Under the pieces are notes generated by a model. The model did not search any database. It was given only the letters and a program-made list of their open reading frames with translations, and had not been told where the DNA came from. A stretch of 14,686 nt of DNA from Labilithrix sp. GTDB lineage: Bacteria; Myxococcota; Polyangia; Polyangiales; Polyangiaceae. Location: positions 1 to 14,686 of the forward strand of contig JAQBQL010000063.1 of the NCBI GenBank assembly GCA_028287035.1. Reading direction: 5' to 3'. Positions 5,234-12,063 of the stretch are shown here, piece by piece; position 1 is the first letter of the stretch; each line of letters opens with the position of its first letter. Both the position numbers and the translations under genes were made by a program.

Positions 5234-7054
5234 GTGCCGAGACCGACGACGTTCCCCACGTTTTTCCTGCTCGTGCTTCTGGCGGCGCTCCTCGCCGGTT
5301 GCGAACGTGACGGCGTCCCGCCGCTCGTCGAGGTCACCGAGATCGCGCCCCGCGAGATCGAGGTCGGCGATCGCATCGAGCTCCAGGGCGCCGGCTTCCC
5401 GCAGGGCCGCACCGCGCGCGTCACCTTCCGCGGGACGGTGCACCGCCCCGGCGAGGCGCCCGTCACCGGCGTCTCGGTGGAGGCCGAAGGCGTCGTCACG
5501 GGCAGCGACAGCATCGAGGTGCCGGTCACCGAGCGTCTCGAGGAGCGCTTCTGCGGTCACGGCGACCACGCGGCGCACACGACGATGGAGGGGGACCTCG
5601 AGGTGGCCTTCGCGTCGAGCGTCCCCGGGGCCGCTCCCCTGGTCGGCACGATGCACGGCATGTCGCTCGACATCACGCCGTCCTCGGTGCGGGCCAGCGT
5701 GGTCGACGCCCGCATGGGCGAGGGGCGGCGCGTGCTCGCCTATCTCGGGGTGACGCCGGGGCCCGCCTCGCCCCGCGGCATCCCGATCGAGAAGCTCGAG
5801 CCCGGGTCACCCGGCGAGCGCGCGGGCTTCCAGGTCGGCGATCTCGTGGCGGCGGTCGACGGCGTGCACGTGCGCGAGCCGTCCGACGTCGCGCCCGCCT
5901 CGGCGCGGAGCGCGCAGATCACCTTGCGCCGCGAAGGCGGCGGGGCCGAGGAGACGAAGACGGTCCCGATGATCGGCTATGCGGGCGCGCGCATCCCGAC
6001 CGAGTACCTCCCGGCGCTCCTCCTCGTCGGCCTCGCGCTCGCGGTGCTGCTCCTGCTGGTGCTCCCTGCGCCGGCGGTGGCGTCGGCCCTCGAGCTCCGG
6101 GTGGCGCGGCGGCTGAGGAGCGCGGGACCGGCGCGCCTCGCCCGGGCGCTCTTCGGACGCGGTCCTCGCGCGGCCTTCTCGGGGCTCGCCTCGCTGCTGG
6201 TGGGCACGTTCGCGCTCGGTCCGTACGTCGCGTCGGCCGACTTCGACCTGGTCGTCCTCCTCGCCATCGCGCTCGCGCTGCTGCTCGGAGCGCGCATGGC
6301 GGGCACCGGCTCGGCGCTCGCCTCGCTGAAGGCAGCGCTCGACGTCGGCCTCGCCGGTCTCGTCCTCGGCGCCGCGTCGGTCGGGGTCGTCGTGTCGGGC
6401 GGAGCCCTCCGTCTCGCCGAGATCGTGAGGGCGCAGGGCGGAGCGCCCTGGGAGTTCGCCGCGGTCCGTCAGCCGGCGAGCGCCGCGCTGGCGATGGCGT
6501 ACGTCGGCGCGCTGCTCGTCCTCCTGCGCGGCCGCGAGGACGGCGCCCTCCTCGCCCACGCGCGCCTCGACGAACGAGCGCCCGACGCGACCGCCCGGCC
6601 CGCGTCCTCGCCGGTCACGTCGCGCGAGGCGAACGGCGTCCTCCTCGAGCGCCTCGGCCTCCTCGTCGCCTCGGCGCTCGGCGTCGCGCTCTTCTTCGGC
6701 GGCTGGCAGCTGCCCGGCGTCGAGGTGCGGGGCGCGCCGCTCCAGGTCCTCGCCGCCGTGCTCTTCGTGGCGAAGACGTGGGCGCTGTGCGGGGCGCTGC
6801 TCGGCGCCGCCGCCATCGCCTCGCCGTGGTCCGCGCAGGCGTCGCGCGCGTTCGTCCTGCGCCGCCTCGTGCCGGCGCTCCTCGCAGGCGTGCTCCTCGT
6901 CGCGCTGACGCGTCGCCTGCCGCCGAGCGAGTCACTCGAGGCCGCGCTCGGGGTCACGCTCGTCGCGGCGCTCGTCCTGCTCTCGCTCCGCGCCGCCCTC
7001 CGCATCCGGGGCGCGTGGCGTCGTCCGGAACCGCACGCCAGCCCGTTTTTGTAG
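5234..7054 (+). CDS. Complex I subunit H (NuoH)-like membrane protein with lipoprotein signal, IPT-like and PDZ domains
   Basis: 606 residues, GTG start. Lipobox LAGC with Cys23 predicts N-terminal lipidation. Residues about 31-100 look like an IPT/TIG beta domain (TEIAPREIEVGDRIEL, GAGF). A CGHGDHAAH stretch (107-115) could bind metal. A PDZ domain covers about 168-245 (GIPIEKL, ERAGFQVGDLVAAVDG). Residues about 257-595 are polytopic and resemble NuoH, the quinone-chamber subunit that couples complex I to its pumps: AEIVRAQGGAPWEF at 395-408, LFFGGW at 486-491 and a following FVAKTW helix. The acidic loop of true NuoH (ETNRxPFDLPEAE) is replaced by unrelated sequence (about 431-466). It heads a three-gene operon and the next gene starts 41 bp on. 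Homology to NuoH is judged by eye; the function is unknown and need not be NADH oxidation. Confidence 0.75.
   Translation: MPRPTTFPTFFLLVLLAALLAGCERDGVPPLVEVTEIAPREIEVGDRIELQGAGFPQGRTARVTFRGTVHRPGEAPVTGVSVEAEGVVTGSDSIEVPVTERLEERFCGHGDHAAHTTMEGDLEVAFASSVPGAAPLVGTMHGMSLDITPSSVRASVVDARMGEGRRVLAYLGVTPGPASPRGIPIEKLEPGSPGERAGFQVGDLVAAVDGVHVREPSDVAPASARSAQITLRREGGGAEETKTVPMIGYAGARIPTEYLPALLLVGLALAVLLLLVLPAPAVASALELRVARRLRSAGPARLARALFGRGPRAAFSGLASLLVGTFALGPYVASADFDLVVLLAIALALLLGARMAGTGSALASLKAALDVGLAGLVLGAASVGVVVSGGALRLAEIVRAQGGAPWEFAAVRQPASAALAMAYVGALLVLLRGREDGALLAHARLDERAPDATARPASSPVTSREANGVLLERLGLLVASALGVALFFGGWQLPGVEVRGAPLQVLAAVLFVAKTWALCGALLGAAAIASPWSAQASRAFVLRRLVPALLAGVLLVALTRRLPPSESLEAALGVTLVAALVLLSLRAALRIRGAWRRPEPHASPFL
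7016..7050 (+). terminator. Terminator-like hairpin with T5 run at the end of the NuoH-like gene
   Basis: TGGCGT (7016-7021) pairs with ACGCCA (7035-7040), followed by GCCCG and TTTTT (7046-7050). The stem is only 6 bp with a 13-base loop. It lies inside the last codons of the gene, so it may be chance. If real, it could lower expression of the two downstream genes. Confidence 0.2.
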
Positions 7055-7095
7055 GCCAGCTCGAAGGCGGTCGGCGGTAGCCTAGGACGCCACAG

Positions 7096-9291
7096 ATGTT
7101 CGAGACCGCGGGCACACTCACGATCGTCGAGATCGTCTCGTCGCTCGTCGCGCTCGTGGTGCTGCCGATGCTCTGGTCGGGATTCGCGGCCTTCGCGGAG
7201 CTCCGCGGCGCCGGTGACGCGCGACCCAGGAGCGCCGTGCTCGCGGTGCGCGTCGCCATCGCCGGCTCGGCGCTCACCGTCGTGCTCGCCGCCTTCCACG
7301 CGGTCCGCGCATCGCTGGCGCCTCCCGGGCAGGTCGCGCAGCAGCACGTCAGCACCCTCGCTCGGTTCGGGTCGCTCGACATCGGGCTCGACCTCGTCCG
7401 CGACCCGACCTCGTCGGCGTGTGCGCTGCTGGCGGCGGTGATCGGGTTCGCGGCGGTGCTCCATGCCGCGTGGACCGCGCCGGCTCGCATCGCGGGCCGC
7501 CTCGCGTGGACGGGCCTCGCGACGGCGGCCGTGATCCTCGTCGCCATCGCCGATGGTCTGCCGTGCCTCGCCATCGGTCTCCAGCTCGCGACGCTCGCCG
7601 GCTGGGCGCTCGCCGGCGGCGGGCGGACGCGCGTGCTCGTCCTCGCGCTGGCCGGTGACGTGGCGCTCGTCTTCGCGGGCTGGGTGCTCTTCTGGTCGCT
7701 CGGCGGCAGCTTCAGCACGTCGGGGTTCACGCCCGATCCGCTCCCTCGCTTCGCGATCGTCGCGGTCCCCGAGGCGCCGCGGGCCGACGGAAAGGCGAGC
7801 GTCGCGCTCACCACGTACACCGACGCGCTCGTCAGCTCGGACGACGGTCCGCCGCTGCCCAATGAGCCGGTGCGTGCGCCGTTCCTCGCGGTCCTCGAGC
7901 CGGGCGTCTACTCGTTCCGGATCCAGGCGAGCGCCGCCACCGCCGACATGCTGGTCACGCACGTGACGCTCGCGCCGGGCCGCTCGTACGTGCTGACGCC
8001 GTACGGTCCCACGACGAGCTTCTCGAACCTCGACGACCAGCTCCAGGTGCCGCGTCCGACGCCCTCCGGCGCGACCTCGATGCGGACGGTGCTCGCGTCA
8101 CGGGTGTTCGGCGGCGTGCGCGTTGCGAGCGTCGTCGGGCTCCTCGCGGTGCTCGCCGCGCTGCTGCGCCTCGCTCTCCTCGCGAAGACGCAGCAGGGCG
8201 GTCTTGCCTACGCGCTCGAGGCGATCCCGCCGGTCGTCATCGCCATCCACATGTTGCCGCTGGTCGATCCGGGCGCCGCGCTCGGGCTCGCCATCCTGCC
8301 CGCGTTCATGGGTCTCCTGCTCGCCGGCGACGCCGCGGCAGCGGGCTCGTCGGACCGCGTGCCGCGCGCGGTGGTCGCGTCGCTCGCTGCCCTGGCGGTC
8401 GCCGCGGTCCTCGTCGGCGAGCCCGCCGGCGCCATGGTGATCCTCGTCGCCGCGGGTCTCGGCGGCGCCGCGTCGACCACCGCGCTCGACGCGGAGGCCG
8501 ACGTCCGCTGGCTCGGCATGGCATCGGCGAGCCTCGCCGGCGTGCTGCCGGGCGCCGGCTCGTCGGCGGGGATTGCCTCCGCGCTGCAGGGCTCGCTCGT
8601 CGCCGCCTCGCTCGGCCATCCGGCGGGCGCCGCGGTGGCGCTCCTGCTCGCCGGCTCCGCCCTGCTCGTCGCCCTGGCCGCCTTTCGCGTGTATGGTGCA
8701 AGCATCCGGCAGCCCCTTCCGACTCGCGGCAAGGTGGGTCCCCGCACCATGGCGCTCGCGCTGGCCGCGCTCTCGCTCATGGGCGGCGCGGTGCTCGGCG
8801 TCGGCAGCTCGCAGCTCGGCGGGCGCACCGTGCCGCTGGCGAGGCGCCTCGTCGACCCGCCGGGCGGCGTCGACGCGTACCCGAAGGTCATGATCCTCGC
8901 GCTGCTGATCACGGTCGCCATGGCGGTGCTCGGCCTGCTCGCGGCAAGGCGGGCGAGCACCACCAGGGAGCCGCCGGCCTGGCTCGCGTCCTTGGCCTTC
9001 CCGGTCACCGTCGTGGGCCGCGTCGCCCGCCGCGCGAGCGCGCTCGTGTGGTTCTTCGTCCGTTCGGTGACGGTCATGAACGAGGACGTCATCGACGACG
9101 CGGCCGACGCGGCGAGCTCGGCGCTGGCCCGGCTCGGGCGCCTCGTGGGGCGGCGCGGGCCCAGCGCCGGCGCAGCGGCAGCCACGGCAGGCGACGATCC
9201 GCGCGCCTTCGGTCGCTTGGAGCTCGTCCTCGTGACCTTCATGGTAACGGTCCTCGGCGTCGTGGTTCTCTCCTCGGTGGTCCTCGGTTGA
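7096..9291 (+). CDS. Complex I subunit L (NuoL)-like membrane protein with large extra soluble domain
   Basis: 731 residues; AGGA at 7084-7087 supports the ATG. NuoL is the distal antiporter-like proton pump of complex I. Matching landmarks by eye are: an early membrane pair with LDIGLDLVRDPTSSACALL (94-112; family pattern L-x-DPLS); a region resembling the TM12 to C-terminal part (DVRWLGMASASLAGVLPGAG, then AFRVYG); and a C-terminal amphipathic segment plus last helix (NEDVIDDAAD, then a hydrophobic end) like the NuoL lateral helix. Between about residues 205 and 335 lies a soluble domain, Pro- and Thr-rich with beta-like strands (EPGVYSFRIQ, LAPGRSYVL). It sits where the conserved PLHxWLPDAMxGPTPVSALIHAATM segment should be. 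Proton-path residues look lost: Gln163 at the TM5 Glu position and no FSKDE Lys-Asp pair. The function is unknown; it is co-transcribed with its neighbours. Confidence 0.75.
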   Translation: MFETAGTLTIVEIVSSLVALVVLPMLWSGFAAFAELRGAGDARPRSAVLAVRVAIAGSALTVVLAAFHAVRASLAPPGQVAQQHVSTLARFGSLDIGLDLVRDPTSSACALLAAVIGFAAVLHAAWTAPARIAGRLAWTGLATAAVILVAIADGLPCLAIGLQLATLAGWALAGGGRTRVLVLALAGDVALVFAGWVLFWSLGGSFSTSGFTPDPLPRFAIVAVPEAPRADGKASVALTTYTDALVSSDDGPPLPNEPVRAPFLAVLEPGVYSFRIQASAATADMLVTHVTLAPGRSYVLTPYGPTTSFSNLDDQLQVPRPTPSGATSMRTVLASRVFGGVRVASVVGLLAVLAALLRLALLAKTQQGGLAYALEAIPPVVIAIHMLPLVDPGAALGLAILPAFMGLLLAGDAAAAGSSDRVPRAVVASLAALAVAAVLVGEPAGAMVILVAAGLGGAASTTALDAEADVRWLGMASASLAGVLPGAGSSAGIASALQGSLVAASLGHPAGAAVALLLAGSALLVALAAFRVYGASIRQPLPTRGKVGPRTMALALAALSLMGGAVLGVGSSQLGGRTVPLARRLVDPPGGVDAYPKVMILALLITVAMAVLGLLAARRASTTREPPAWLASLAFPVTVVGRVARRASALVWFFVRSVTVMNEDVIDDAADAASSALARLGRLVGRRGPSAGAAAATAGDDPRAFGRLELVLVTFMVTVLGVVVLSSVVLG

Positions 9292-11381
9292 TGGTCGTCA
9301 CGCGGACGCTCCGTCACCTCGCGCGCGTGGTGCTCTTCGTGGTCCTCGGCTTCGTCGCCCTGGGCGCCGCGGCGCGCGTCGCTTGGGCCGAGGAGCCGCG
9401 ACGCGCCGGCAACGTGCACCTCGAGAATGCCTCGGGCGCGCGCGGCCCGATCGAGCTGCGCTTCGGGCAAGAAGGCTTCACGGGCGAGATGTCGATCGTC
9501 AACGAGGGCAAGGAGCCGCTCCTCGTCTCGCGCCTGACCGTCCGGGGCGACGCCGCCGATCCGCGCTCTCCGCCGAAGCTGACCGTCCGCATGAACGAGG
9601 GCACCTTGCCGGTCACCCTCGCGCCTGGCGCCTCGAAGAAGGCGACGATCACCTGGGTCGCCGAGCGTGGCGTCCGCCTCCGCCAGCTGTACGGGCACCT
9701 TCTCGTCACCTCCTCGGACGAGCAGACCGGTGAGGCTGCGATCGGCGTCCGTGCCCAGCTGCCCGGCGGGCTCGGCCCCCTCGAAGGACACCTCGTGTCG
9801 CTCCTCATCGGCGTTCCGCTGCTGGGCGCGCTCCTCACGCTGCTCGCGCGCGCGCTCGGCCGGCGCGACGATCACACCCCGCATCGCATCGCGGCCGTGG
9901 CCCTCGCCGTCCAGGCCGCCCTCGCGCTCTACGTGTTCGTCCGGTTCGCGCCGGACGTCTCCCGGCTCGACGGCAACGACGGCCTCCAGTTCATCGAGCA
10001 CGGCGTGTGGATCCGCGGGCTCTCTGCGGAGATCTTCTTCGGTGTGGACGGTACGAGCGCCGCCACCCTCGTCGCCACGAGCCTCGTCGGCTTCTTCGCG
10101 ATCCTGCCCGAGCGCGTCGTCCCGCGCGGCTCGGCCGGCTACCACGCCGCGTACCTGGCGCTCGCCGCGGCGGTGCCGGGCGCGCTCTGCGCGATGGATG
10201 GCCTCCTCTTCGTGCTCTTCGTGGCCCTTGCCGTGCTCGCGGCGACGCTCCTCGTCGCGGGCTGGGGCGGGGCGGGGCGCGAGACCGCGGCGCTCAAGCT
10301 CGGCATGTTCGGCGCCTTCGCGGTGCTCTGCCTCCTGGTCGCCGTCATCGCCGTGTCTCGCGCCGCCGACGCGACGTTCCTGGTCGACGGGACGAAGACC
10401 TCCACCACCTTCAGCCTGCCCGAGCTGTCGCGCGTCGCGCTCGGCGCCAAGGGCGTGAAGCTGTTCGGCGGCGCGCTCGTGAAGGTGGCGTTCCTGCTGG
10501 TCCTCGTGGCGAGCCTCGTCCTGCTCGGCGCCTTTCCCATGCATGCGTGGCTCGCCCCGACGTTCGCCGCGTCGAGCACCGCCGCGGGCGCGCTCGTCGC
10601 CAGCGCCCTCCCGGCGATCGGCGCGTGCGCCCTCCTGCGCATCGGCTGCGGCGTGCTCCCGGAAGGGATGCGCTGGGCCTCGGGCGTGGTGGTCGCGCTC
10701 GGCGCGGTGAGCGCCGCCTACGGTGCGCTCGCGGCGCTCGGGCAGAGCGACCTCCGCAAGCTCGCCGCCGCGGCGACGACCGCCCAGGTGGGCTTTCTCC
10801 TCCTCGGCGCAGGCTCGCTCACGCCTCAGGGGCTGTCCGGCGCGATGGTCCTCCCCGCGATGCGGGCGCTCGGGTGCGGGCTCTTCCTCGTCGCCACCGG
10901 CGCGGTCGAAGCGCGGGCCCACACGCGCGAGCTGGCGCGGCTCGAGGGCGTCGCCCAGCAGATGCCGGGCTGGTCCGCCGTGCTCACCGTGGCCGCGCTC
11001 GCCCAGGCCGGCGTGATGGGCATCGGCGGCGCGTGGGGACCCGTCATGGCGCTGCTCGGCGCGCTTCCCAACTACCCGCCGCTCGCGCTGCTCGGCGCCC
11101 TCGGCCTCGTGCTCGCCGCGGCCGCGCACTTCTTCGCGGTGTCCCGCGTCGTCTTCGGCGGCCTCGCGCCCGAGTGGCAGCGCAGCCCGCTGCTCGAGCC
11201 CTTCGGCGGCCGGTTCCCGGATCTGAGCAGGCGTGAGTGGCTGAGCGTCGCGCCCCTCGCGCTCCTCGTCGTGCTCCTCGGCGTGTGGCCCGCCGCGCTG
11301 TTCGCGTCGACGACGGGCACCGTGCGCGATCTGACGAACGCGGTCAGCCCCCCCGGGCCCGACCAGATCGCGTCCCTCTAG
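9291..11381 (+). CDS. Complex I subunit M (NuoM)-like membrane protein with signal peptide and ASH/Ig-like domain
   Basis: 696 residues. The ATG at 9291 overlaps the TGA of the previous gene by one base (TGATG), implying translational coupling. A signal peptide (cleavage predicted after AWA, residue 33) is followed by a beta domain at about 40-157, like ASPM/SPD-2/Hydin or choice-of-anchor domains (NEGKEPLLVSRL, TLAPGASKKATITW, GHLLVTSSDE). From about 165 on it is NuoM-like: PLLGALLTLLAR, QFIEHGVWIRGL, EIFFGVDGTSA (family FxLGVDGIS), FPMHAWLAPTF (415-425; family PLHxWLPDAH) and a STAAGALVASALPAIGACA region (family APTAGSVxLAGxLLK). Aligned by eye, the TM5 Glu, the TM7 Lys, the TM8 Lys and the TM12 Glu are replaced by Ala312, Leu411, Ala442 and Pro (in AWGPVM). 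Proton pumping in the usual way is therefore doubtful. It ends the operon. Confidence 0.78.
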   Translation: MVVTRTLRHLARVVLFVVLGFVALGAAARVAWAEEPRRAGNVHLENASGARGPIELRFGQEGFTGEMSIVNEGKEPLLVSRLTVRGDAADPRSPPKLTVRMNEGTLPVTLAPGASKKATITWVAERGVRLRQLYGHLLVTSSDEQTGEAAIGVRAQLPGGLGPLEGHLVSLLIGVPLLGALLTLLARALGRRDDHTPHRIAAVALAVQAALALYVFVRFAPDVSRLDGNDGLQFIEHGVWIRGLSAEIFFGVDGTSAATLVATSLVGFFAILPERVVPRGSAGYHAAYLALAAAVPGALCAMDGLLFVLFVALAVLAATLLVAGWGGAGRETAALKLGMFGAFAVLCLLVAVIAVSRAADATFLVDGTKTSTTFSLPELSRVALGAKGVKLFGGALVKVAFLLVLVASLVLLGAFPMHAWLAPTFAASSTAAGALVASALPAIGACALLRIGCGVLPEGMRWASGVVVALGAVSAAYGALAALGQSDLRKLAAAATTAQVGFLLLGAGSLTPQGLSGAMVLPAMRALGCGLFLVATGAVEARAHTRELARLEGVAQQMPGWSAVLTVAALAQAGVMGIGGAWGPVMALLGALPNYPPLALLGALGLVLAAAAHFFAVSRVVFGGLAPEWQRSPLLEPFGGRFPDLSRREWLSVAPLALLVVLLGVWPAALFASTTGTVRDLTNAVSPPGPDQIASL

Positions 11382-11388
11382 TCGACTA
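11379..11388. repeat. 10-bp palindrome made of two convergent stop codons
   Basis: TAGTCGACTA is perfectly self-complementary. The + strand TAG (11379-11381) ends the NuoM-like gene and the minus-strand TAG (11386-11388) ends the lipoprotein gene. Only 4 bp separate the two genes, so any transcription terminator must lie inside one of the coding regions. Confidence 0.7.
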
Positions 11389-12063
11389 CTTCTTGGTCGG
11401 CTTCTTCGTGTCCGCGGGCTTCTTGCCGGCGGGCGCGGCGGCCTTCTCGGCGGCGGGCGGCGCGACCACGAAGGCGACGGCAAGAGCGCCGGCGCGCTTG
11501 GCCCCGCCGAGGTTCTCGAACTTGCCGAGCGTCGCGGCCTTGCCGGCGCCGGACGTCCACGAGACGGTGCCGTCGTCGCCGACGCTGACCTTGTCGCCCT
11601 TGGCGAGCGTGAGGTCGTCACCCGAGAAGCTGCCGTATGCGGTGGCCGACTCGCCCGCCGTGACCGCGCCGTCGCCGCCGACGTTGAGCAGGCTCTTGCT
11701 GCCGTCCGCGTTCTGCAGCGTCATGCCGGAGATCTTCGCGACCGCCTTGCCGCCGCTCGAGACGGTGCCGTCCGCCTTCAGCTCGAGGGCCTTCTTGCCC
11801 TTCAGCGCGGCCTTCGCGTTGGCCGTCGGGAGCGAGAGCGTCGCCGCGGGGGGCGGGGTCGAGTCGCTGGAGGCGCTGCTGCCGGTCGCGCCGCCATCGA
11901 CGCTGCCCGTCGTGTCGGGCATGCCCGGCATGTCGGCCGAGGCCGAAGCATCGAGGGCGTCCGACTCGGGCGGATGTGCCGGCTTCTTCGAGCCGCAGGC
12001 AGCGGTCGCGAGCAGCGCGAGGAGGGAGACGGAGGCGAAGGTGTATTTTGCAACGCGGAGCAT
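11386..12063 (-). CDS. Small repeat lipoprotein of unknown function, downstream of atpG
   Basis: 225 residues. An export signal ends in LLATAAC (Cys23); the -3 residue of the lipobox is Thr, so lipidation is likely but not certain. Residues about 30-80 are a disordered Ser/Asp/Pro-rich linker. Residues 97-195 form three repeats of exactly 33 residues, each starting with an acidic-DG-small-V motif (ADGTV at 97, GDGAV at 130, DDGTV at 163). A GK/GE-A-x-A and Gly-aromatic pattern follows in each, consistent with repeated beta-strands. The end is Lys/Ala/Pro rich (EKAAAPAGKKPADTKKPTKK). ATG at 12063 is preferred because upstream in-frame sequence belongs to the atpG shadow. It lies 56 bp behind atpG on the same strand and is probably the last gene of that transcript. 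I do not recognise a named family. Confidence 0.8.
   Translation of the reverse strand: MLRVAKYTFASVSLLALLATAACGSKKPAHPPESDALDASASADMPGMPDTTGSVDGGATGSSASSDSTPPPAATLSLPTANAKAALKGKKALELKADGTVSSGGKAVAKISGMTLQNADGSKSLLNVGGDGAVTAGESATAYGSFSGDDLTLAKGDKVSVGDDGTVSWTSGAGKAATLGKFENLGGAKRAGALAVAFVVAPPAAEKAAAPAGKKPADTKKPTKK
11479..11775 (-). repeat. Three tandem 99-bp (33-residue) units in the lipoprotein gene
   Basis: The motif x-D-G-[TA]-V-[ST] recurs at residues 97, 130 and 163, an exact 33-residue period. The units have diverged at the DNA level, so this is an old protein repeat and not a recent tandem duplication. The third unit is the least regular at its end. Confidence 0.7.

Follow-up and report, generated by a model that had tools for sequence, protein, structure and literature searches.

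Three adjacent genes on the forward strand of a 14,686 nt stretch of DNA from Labilithrix sp. (in the following, the window) encode relatives of the complex I membrane-arm subunits NuoH, NuoL and NuoM, here denoted H, L and M. We consider it somewhat more probable than all other outcomes together (roughly 55%) that this trio is what remains of the membrane part of a second complex I and now serves as a scaffold or receptor in the inner membrane that carries out neither redox chemistry nor pumping. The descent from a second complex I is well supported, and relatives show that this enzyme was already decorated with extra domains on H, L and M while it was still intact. A sequence-only reading of the same DNA had recognized the trio, the one-base coupling of L and M and the added domains, all of which were confirmed. 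Its proposal that the trio descends from the complex I membrane arm was borne out by fold searches for H and L and by the family assignment for M. It had missed that the source was a second, scattered and already decorated complex I, that loops and pump residues have been lost, that H persists where L and M were not found, and that H and L-M can occupy separate loci; for its suggestion of ion-gradient sensing, nothing was found. Genomes, loci and contigs are denoted by G, L and C, respectively, each with the number used in this analysis.

The three gene products and their added domains

The H-like gene (5234..7054, + strand, 606 aa) encodes a lipoprotein signal, a beta-rich domain, a PDZ domain, a NuoH-type membrane part (residues 250-596, 5981..7021) and a conserved C-terminal tail, and the fold search identified a NuoH fold. 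The codon of the lipobox Cys (LLAGC, residue 23, 5300..5302) was assigned from a lipobox-like pattern and the alignment: the pattern is present in 19 of 20 aligned rows, in a few of them at another Cys of the hydrophobic stretch, and 18 of the 20 rows have a Cys at the position aligned with residue 23. The beta-rich domain (residues 29-150, 5318..5683) looks IPT-like by eye, yet no Pfam TIG match was obtained in the 20 rows. The PDZ domain (residues 154-246, 5693..5971) was found as PDZ_6 by Pfam in all 20 rows; its NCBIfam matches to GspC, DegS and Do-type models were weak and far under the cut-off. The lipobox and the PDZ domain suggest that H may bind a ligand at the inner membrane. Among the stretches measured, the highest conservation (0.92) is that of the tail, RPEPHASPFL (7022-7051). 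This tail, which ends in ..ASPFL, is nearly invariant, and intact decorated H proteins of relatives already have a similar one (VNPFI, LNPFL).

The L-like gene (7096..9291, + strand, 731 aa) encodes a protein with a NuoL fold. A sequence search of solved structures returned nothing useful, and profile comparison with canonical NuoL alone gave a weak match (probability 23%). The NuoL-type identity was settled by a bridge via L004 and L011 together with the fold search. An insert (residues 204-342, 7705..8121) lies between long helices six and seven, and a long helix (residues 635-684, 8998..9147) occupies the position of the NuoL lateral helix. In the intact decorated NuoL of G322 (L232:12783-15875) the insert contains very many His, Gly and Asp residues (HGHDAHGGHDAHGG...), resembling a metal-binding stretch, which is absent from the window L.

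The M-like gene (9291..11381, + strand, 696 aa) belongs to the NuoM family, and its ATG overlaps the stop codon of L by one base. Behind a signal peptide follows an outer domain (residues 34-160, 9390..9770) that is ASH-like by eye, with no Pfam ASH match in 21 rows. Thus, all three products carry added domains, as first proposed, but the labels IPT and ASH were not upheld by Pfam.

Loss of the quinone-chamber loops and of the proton path

Both loops of NuoH that build the quinone chamber, GPNR and the quinone-site loop PFDLPEAESEL (PFDLxExExEL), are absent from the window H. In the tabulated set of 51 decorated H proteins, including that of the window, six have retained both loops and 45 neither; in the H of G365, checked separately, both are gone as well. 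The H of G004 has kept LPEAES, a vestige of the quinone loop. One charge of H inside a hydrophobic stretch, K514, is conserved.

Four key charges of NuoM have been replaced in the window M: the TM5 Glu by Ala (residue 312, 10224..10226), the TM7 Lys by Leu (residue 411, 10521..10523), the TM8 Lys by Ala (residue 442, 10614..10616), and the TM12 Glu by Pro (residue 584, 11040..11042). Lys265 on TMH8 is described as invariant (PMC8357420). All four charges are lost in 21 of 21 close M rows and in G355, and are kept in all seven canonical or M2 rows and in all three intact decorated rows. Partly eroded states also exist: the M of G004 has kept the TM8 Lys and the TM12 Glu, and that of G006 the TM5 and TM12 Glu. 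For L, the residues at TM5, TM7 and TM8 were measured, the TM8 column being gappy; at these places, the six aligned window-type rows have lost the TM5 Glu in five cases, the TM7 Lys in six (Arg in five of them) and the TM8 His in six. Pumping by the canonical route is very unlikely.

It could be argued that an Mrp-like antiporter or channel is built from L and M, possibly joined by H, and that its ion path has been rewired and is gated by the outer domains. Indeed, M has retained the FP-H-WL motif, whose His is present in 20 of 21 rows, as well as D303 and K398 in hydrophobic stretches (21 of 21 rows); H418 of M and D153 and E442 of L are further conserved charges of this kind. Because charges have been kept in hydrophobic stretches, residual ion conduction or a rewired path is possible. 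In addition, the membrane part of M is well conserved, with the same mean pairwise identity as its outer domain (0.67 and 0.67), so that a membrane function may remain. With the four M charges gone from every close row and the path residues of L lost at the places measured, however, we regard a transporter as unlikely.

In the M tree, the window M falls into a clade of decorated M proteins that also includes the intact ones from G322, G173 and G381 (SH-aLRT 97), apart from canonical NuoM, and the undecorated M2 of G012 is placed next to this clade (95). The fewest changes that explain the loss of the TM12 Glu on this tree are two. Constraining all rows with Pro at TM12 to one group was rejected (p-AU 0.0003), and constraining all rows without the TM12 Glu was rejected less firmly (0.017), in tests that include long branches and groups named after the tree was seen. 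The replacement of the TM12 Glu by Pro at the same position is observed in two separate clades, the fused M of the G301 type (see below) and the window-type M.

A second, decorated complex I is the source of the trio

Two genomes, G173 and G381, contain a second complex I that looks complete as far as the subunits A, B, C, D, H, J, K, L, M and N are concerned. Its genes are distributed over four loci with the arrangements A-B-C-D, J-K, H and L-M-N (in the two genomes L251, L252, L254, L255, L177, L178, L233 and L234). The second NuoA-B-C-D locus is present in these two genomes and the second J-K pair also in G322; a NuoI-like frame, recognized by its place, was seen in G381 only. In all three genomes, H has a lipoprotein-like start (by eye), is a complete NuoH (PF00146, 373 bits) and possesses both quinone-chamber loops, and the H of G173 has a PDZ domain by Pfam, like the window H. 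The decorated L and M of these genomes have retained every key residue measured, and the L-M-N locus lies away from H and yields strong canonical scores. Next to the intact H (L177) and L-M-N (L232, L233), no Nuo redox partner and no Nuo subunit besides H, L and M was found; the frames there encode a GTPase, an ABC ATPase, a sigma factor, a glycosyl hydrolase and a pilin-like protein.

The second set of G173, G381 and G322 matches an undecorated set in G011 and G012 (59-62% for D), in which a single contig carries H, L and M along with C, D, J and K. Yet another type of NuoD, 43-44% identical to the second NuoD, occurs at G113:C3, G126:C21, G082:C9, G067:C43 and G365:C527; in G113 and G126 the contig also encodes an undecorated NuoH. 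This type perhaps represents a third class of complex I.

Loss of the redox arm and of other subunits

In the window, Pfam revealed neither a redox partner (NuoB/C/D/I) nor DabA, in agreement with the sequence-only reading, and NuoN does not adjoin the trio. The gene losses described here were deduced from the genomes of relatives, not from the window's own genome. A second NuoD is encoded in G173, G131, G381, G206 and G298 (identity to the G173 protein, 74-100%) as well as in G011 and G012 (62%). It was found in five of the six genomes with an intact decorated H, versus none of 45 with an eroded H, a comparison between related genomes rather than independent cases. In these 45 genomes, NuoD matches over ≥280 residues are at most 46% identical to the second NuoD, and fragments reach 47% (G010) and 53% (G333); absence counts little in G010, G333 and G357, where NuoD was present in pieces only, and in G373, which gave no match. 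The exception among the intact-H genomes is G322, which is devoid of both the second NuoD and the second NuoA.

Two NuoJ are present in five of five genomes with the intact second set and two NuoA in four of five (not in G322), whereas NuoJ and NuoA are single in all ten eroded genomes searched, and window-type relatives have one NuoA, one NuoD and one NuoJ each (10/10). Extra, unclassified NuoB-family (PF01058) matches exist in G002, G003, G355, G301 and others, and an unclassified second NuoK-family match in G001, G355, G301 and others, which in G001 adjoins three further PF00361 matches on C141 and is remote from the trio. Taken together, loss of the redox arm in the window lineage is well supported.

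A separate canonical complex I, for which the sequence-only reading had suggested a survey, is present in the relatives: PF00361 and PF00146 were found in 12 of 12 genomes and NuoD in 30 of 30. H and L match complex I subunits in fold searches, and the trio, as far as relatives can tell, is not the sole nuo set of its genome. The trio could also be an alternative membrane arm docking onto the redox arm of the canonical enzyme, in the way of NdhD3 and NdhF3 in cyanobacterial NDH-1. Since NuoA, NuoD and NuoJ are single in window-type genomes, this reading would need these subunits to be shared, and their single state fits it to that extent; with both loops of H missing, the pump residues of M lost and a second NuoJ or NuoA absent from ten of ten genomes, docking appears highly improbable.

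Distribution and gene neighborhood

Relatives of H, L and M are numerous; the named ones are mostly from Labilithrix, with a few from Deltaproteobacteria or soil metagenomes. In a scan of genome contigs, the trio or parts of it were among the matches listed for Labilithrix, a Polyangiaceae bacterium and other MAGs of Myxococcales or Deltaproteobacteria. The order uvrB-manC-H-L-M-atpG-atpA is kept in L001 and L004, in L001 including a small frame between M and atpG, and L003 has H in the same place with L and M missing there. The small frame (11386-12048, - strand) is lipoprotein-like (ATAACGSKK), belongs to no Pfam family, and has relatives in L001, L002 and L003. None of the window's main frames encodes a small Mrp subunit. 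Neither promoter-like sites (0, compared with 0.1 in shuffles) nor terminator-like sites (2, compared with 1.2 in shuffles, sd 1.1) gave a signal.

The conserved neighborhood of atpG and atpA, together with the canonical complex I in all relatives searched, would agree with a role of the trio in assembly, stability or regulation of the cell's own canonical complex I or ATP synthase, in which a paralogue has kept binding its old neighbors. The atp genes are on the strand opposite to H-L-M, however, H lacks the cytoplasmic loops that face the redox arm, and H and L-M lie at separate loci in genomes of the G301 type. Such an accessory role is likewise improbable.

From 377 genomes sampled within the phylum, 40 H loci were retrieved. 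Seven have H, L and M together and one has H and L at a contig end; the remaining 32 have no L or M by profile, in some cases due to a contig end. Among 18 genomes in which H lacks an adjacent L or M, a decorated M was found at another locus in eight; the other ten gave canonical-type matches only, a search that a strongly eroded M could escape. L and M are fused in one frame of 1315-1341 aa at a separate locus in G301, G347, G376 and G378, and they form one frame also in G006, there beside H. These fusions suggest that L and M touch each other. In canonical complex I, H is not in contact with L; this geometry and the separate loci suggest that H may constitute one unit and L-M a second. A further eroded H stands solo in a different group of Myxococcota MAGs (L007-L010), with no partner detected beyond conserved neighboring frames of unassigned family.

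Conservation and divergence

In H and L, the outer parts are better conserved than the membrane parts: the mean pairwise identities in H are 0.63 for the beta domain, 0.53 for the PDZ domain and 0.49 for the membrane part, and in L 0.57 for the insert versus 0.38-0.46 elsewhere. In comparisons with L001, the dN/dS pairs of the three genes are 0.29/0.69, 0.37/0.69 and 0.22/0.71 (NG86, which is crude in GC-rich genes). At the same time, when the same genome pairs are compared, decorated proteins show lower identity than their canonical counterparts in 24 of 24 comparisons; for example, the H proteins of G001 and G002 are 49% identical for the decorated and 76% for the canonical type.

Decay would also give such fast divergence, and the many genomes in which L and M are missing beside H could be read in the same way. 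Genes that merely decay without function would not be expected from the long open frames in the relatives compared, from dN below dS for each gene, or from the conserved outer domains and C-terminal tail, and we consider decay very improbable.

A proposed course of events and present role

According to the reading we prefer, a remnant turned scaffold or receptor, outer domains were added to H, L and M at a time when the second complex I was still intact, and its genes became scattered over several loci. The redox arm, the small subunits and N would then have been lost in the window lineage. Gone from H are the loops that form the quinone chamber and point toward the redox arm; M has lost its four proton-path charges, and L the path residues that were measurable. 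What remains is under purifying selection, which in H and L acts most of all on the outer domains.

In canonical complex I, the N termini of NuoH and NuoM face out. This orientation and the signal peptides argue for a periplasmic location of the outer domains. H would be a PDZ protein that is anchored by a lipid and held in the membrane, with C-terminal tails or loops of envelope proteins as its ligands, and L and M would dimerize and present two further domains. As one assembly or as two units, the three proteins might act as a periplasmic scaffold or receptor of the inner membrane, free of redox chemistry and pumping. H would be the core, being found without L and M in many genomes. As judged from sequence, redox work is unlikely, because no partner and no quinone-chamber loops were detected.

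More tentatively, and with less than even confidence, these events can be generalized: a second complex I would have grown a periplasmic crown and afterwards, in at least two parallel events, have parted with its redox arm, its quinone site and its proton path. This would have left a non-redox, non-transporting envelope machine with the crown, that is, the lipid-anchored PDZ domain of H and the further domains of L and M, as its working surface.

Comparison with known systems

The trio shares with the membrane arm of respiratory complex I the fold of H and L, the family of M, the gene order and the long helix of L at the lateral-helix position. It differs in having no redox arm alongside, no quinone-chamber loops and no central-axis charges in M, and in its additional outer domains. 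Its direct kin are the decorated second complex I of G173 and G381 and the undecorated one of G011 and G012, which group with the trio in the M tree and, in G173 and G381, have additions of the same type on the three proteins. Unlike the trio, these enzymes have kept A, B, C, D, J, K and N as well as the measured key residues.

Mrp (CPA3) antiporters are also NuoL/M-type proteins without a redox partner. They keep a charged path and have small subunits, whereas the charges of the trio have been lost in M and, at the places measured, in L. The DabA-DabB CO2 uptake complex is another case of a NuoL/M-type protein in a non-redox job, and its DabB is described as resembling proton-conducting subunits (PMC13144422). 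The trio differs in that its proton path is lost and DabA is not beside it. Among 13 relatives, seven encode DabA, located either on different contigs or at megabase distances from the trio, and G001 does not; a DAB-like partnership is thus not indicated. The envelope proteins GspC, DegS and HtrA have a PDZ domain anchored at the inner membrane, as may also be true of H, but H shows neither a protease nor a secretin-binding part.

In the literature searched, which covered few subscription journals, no description was found of a Myxococcota complex I trio that is decorated or lacks the redox arm. The relatives of the trio in complex I, Mrp and DAB are known as ion movers, and living lineages show steps from a complete-looking, decorated complex I to a remnant in which the redox arm, the quinone-site loops and the proton-path residues are gone and the outer domains are conserved. 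The trio therefore provides natural proton-path mutants and makes it testable what the scaffold of a membrane arm does without energy coupling.
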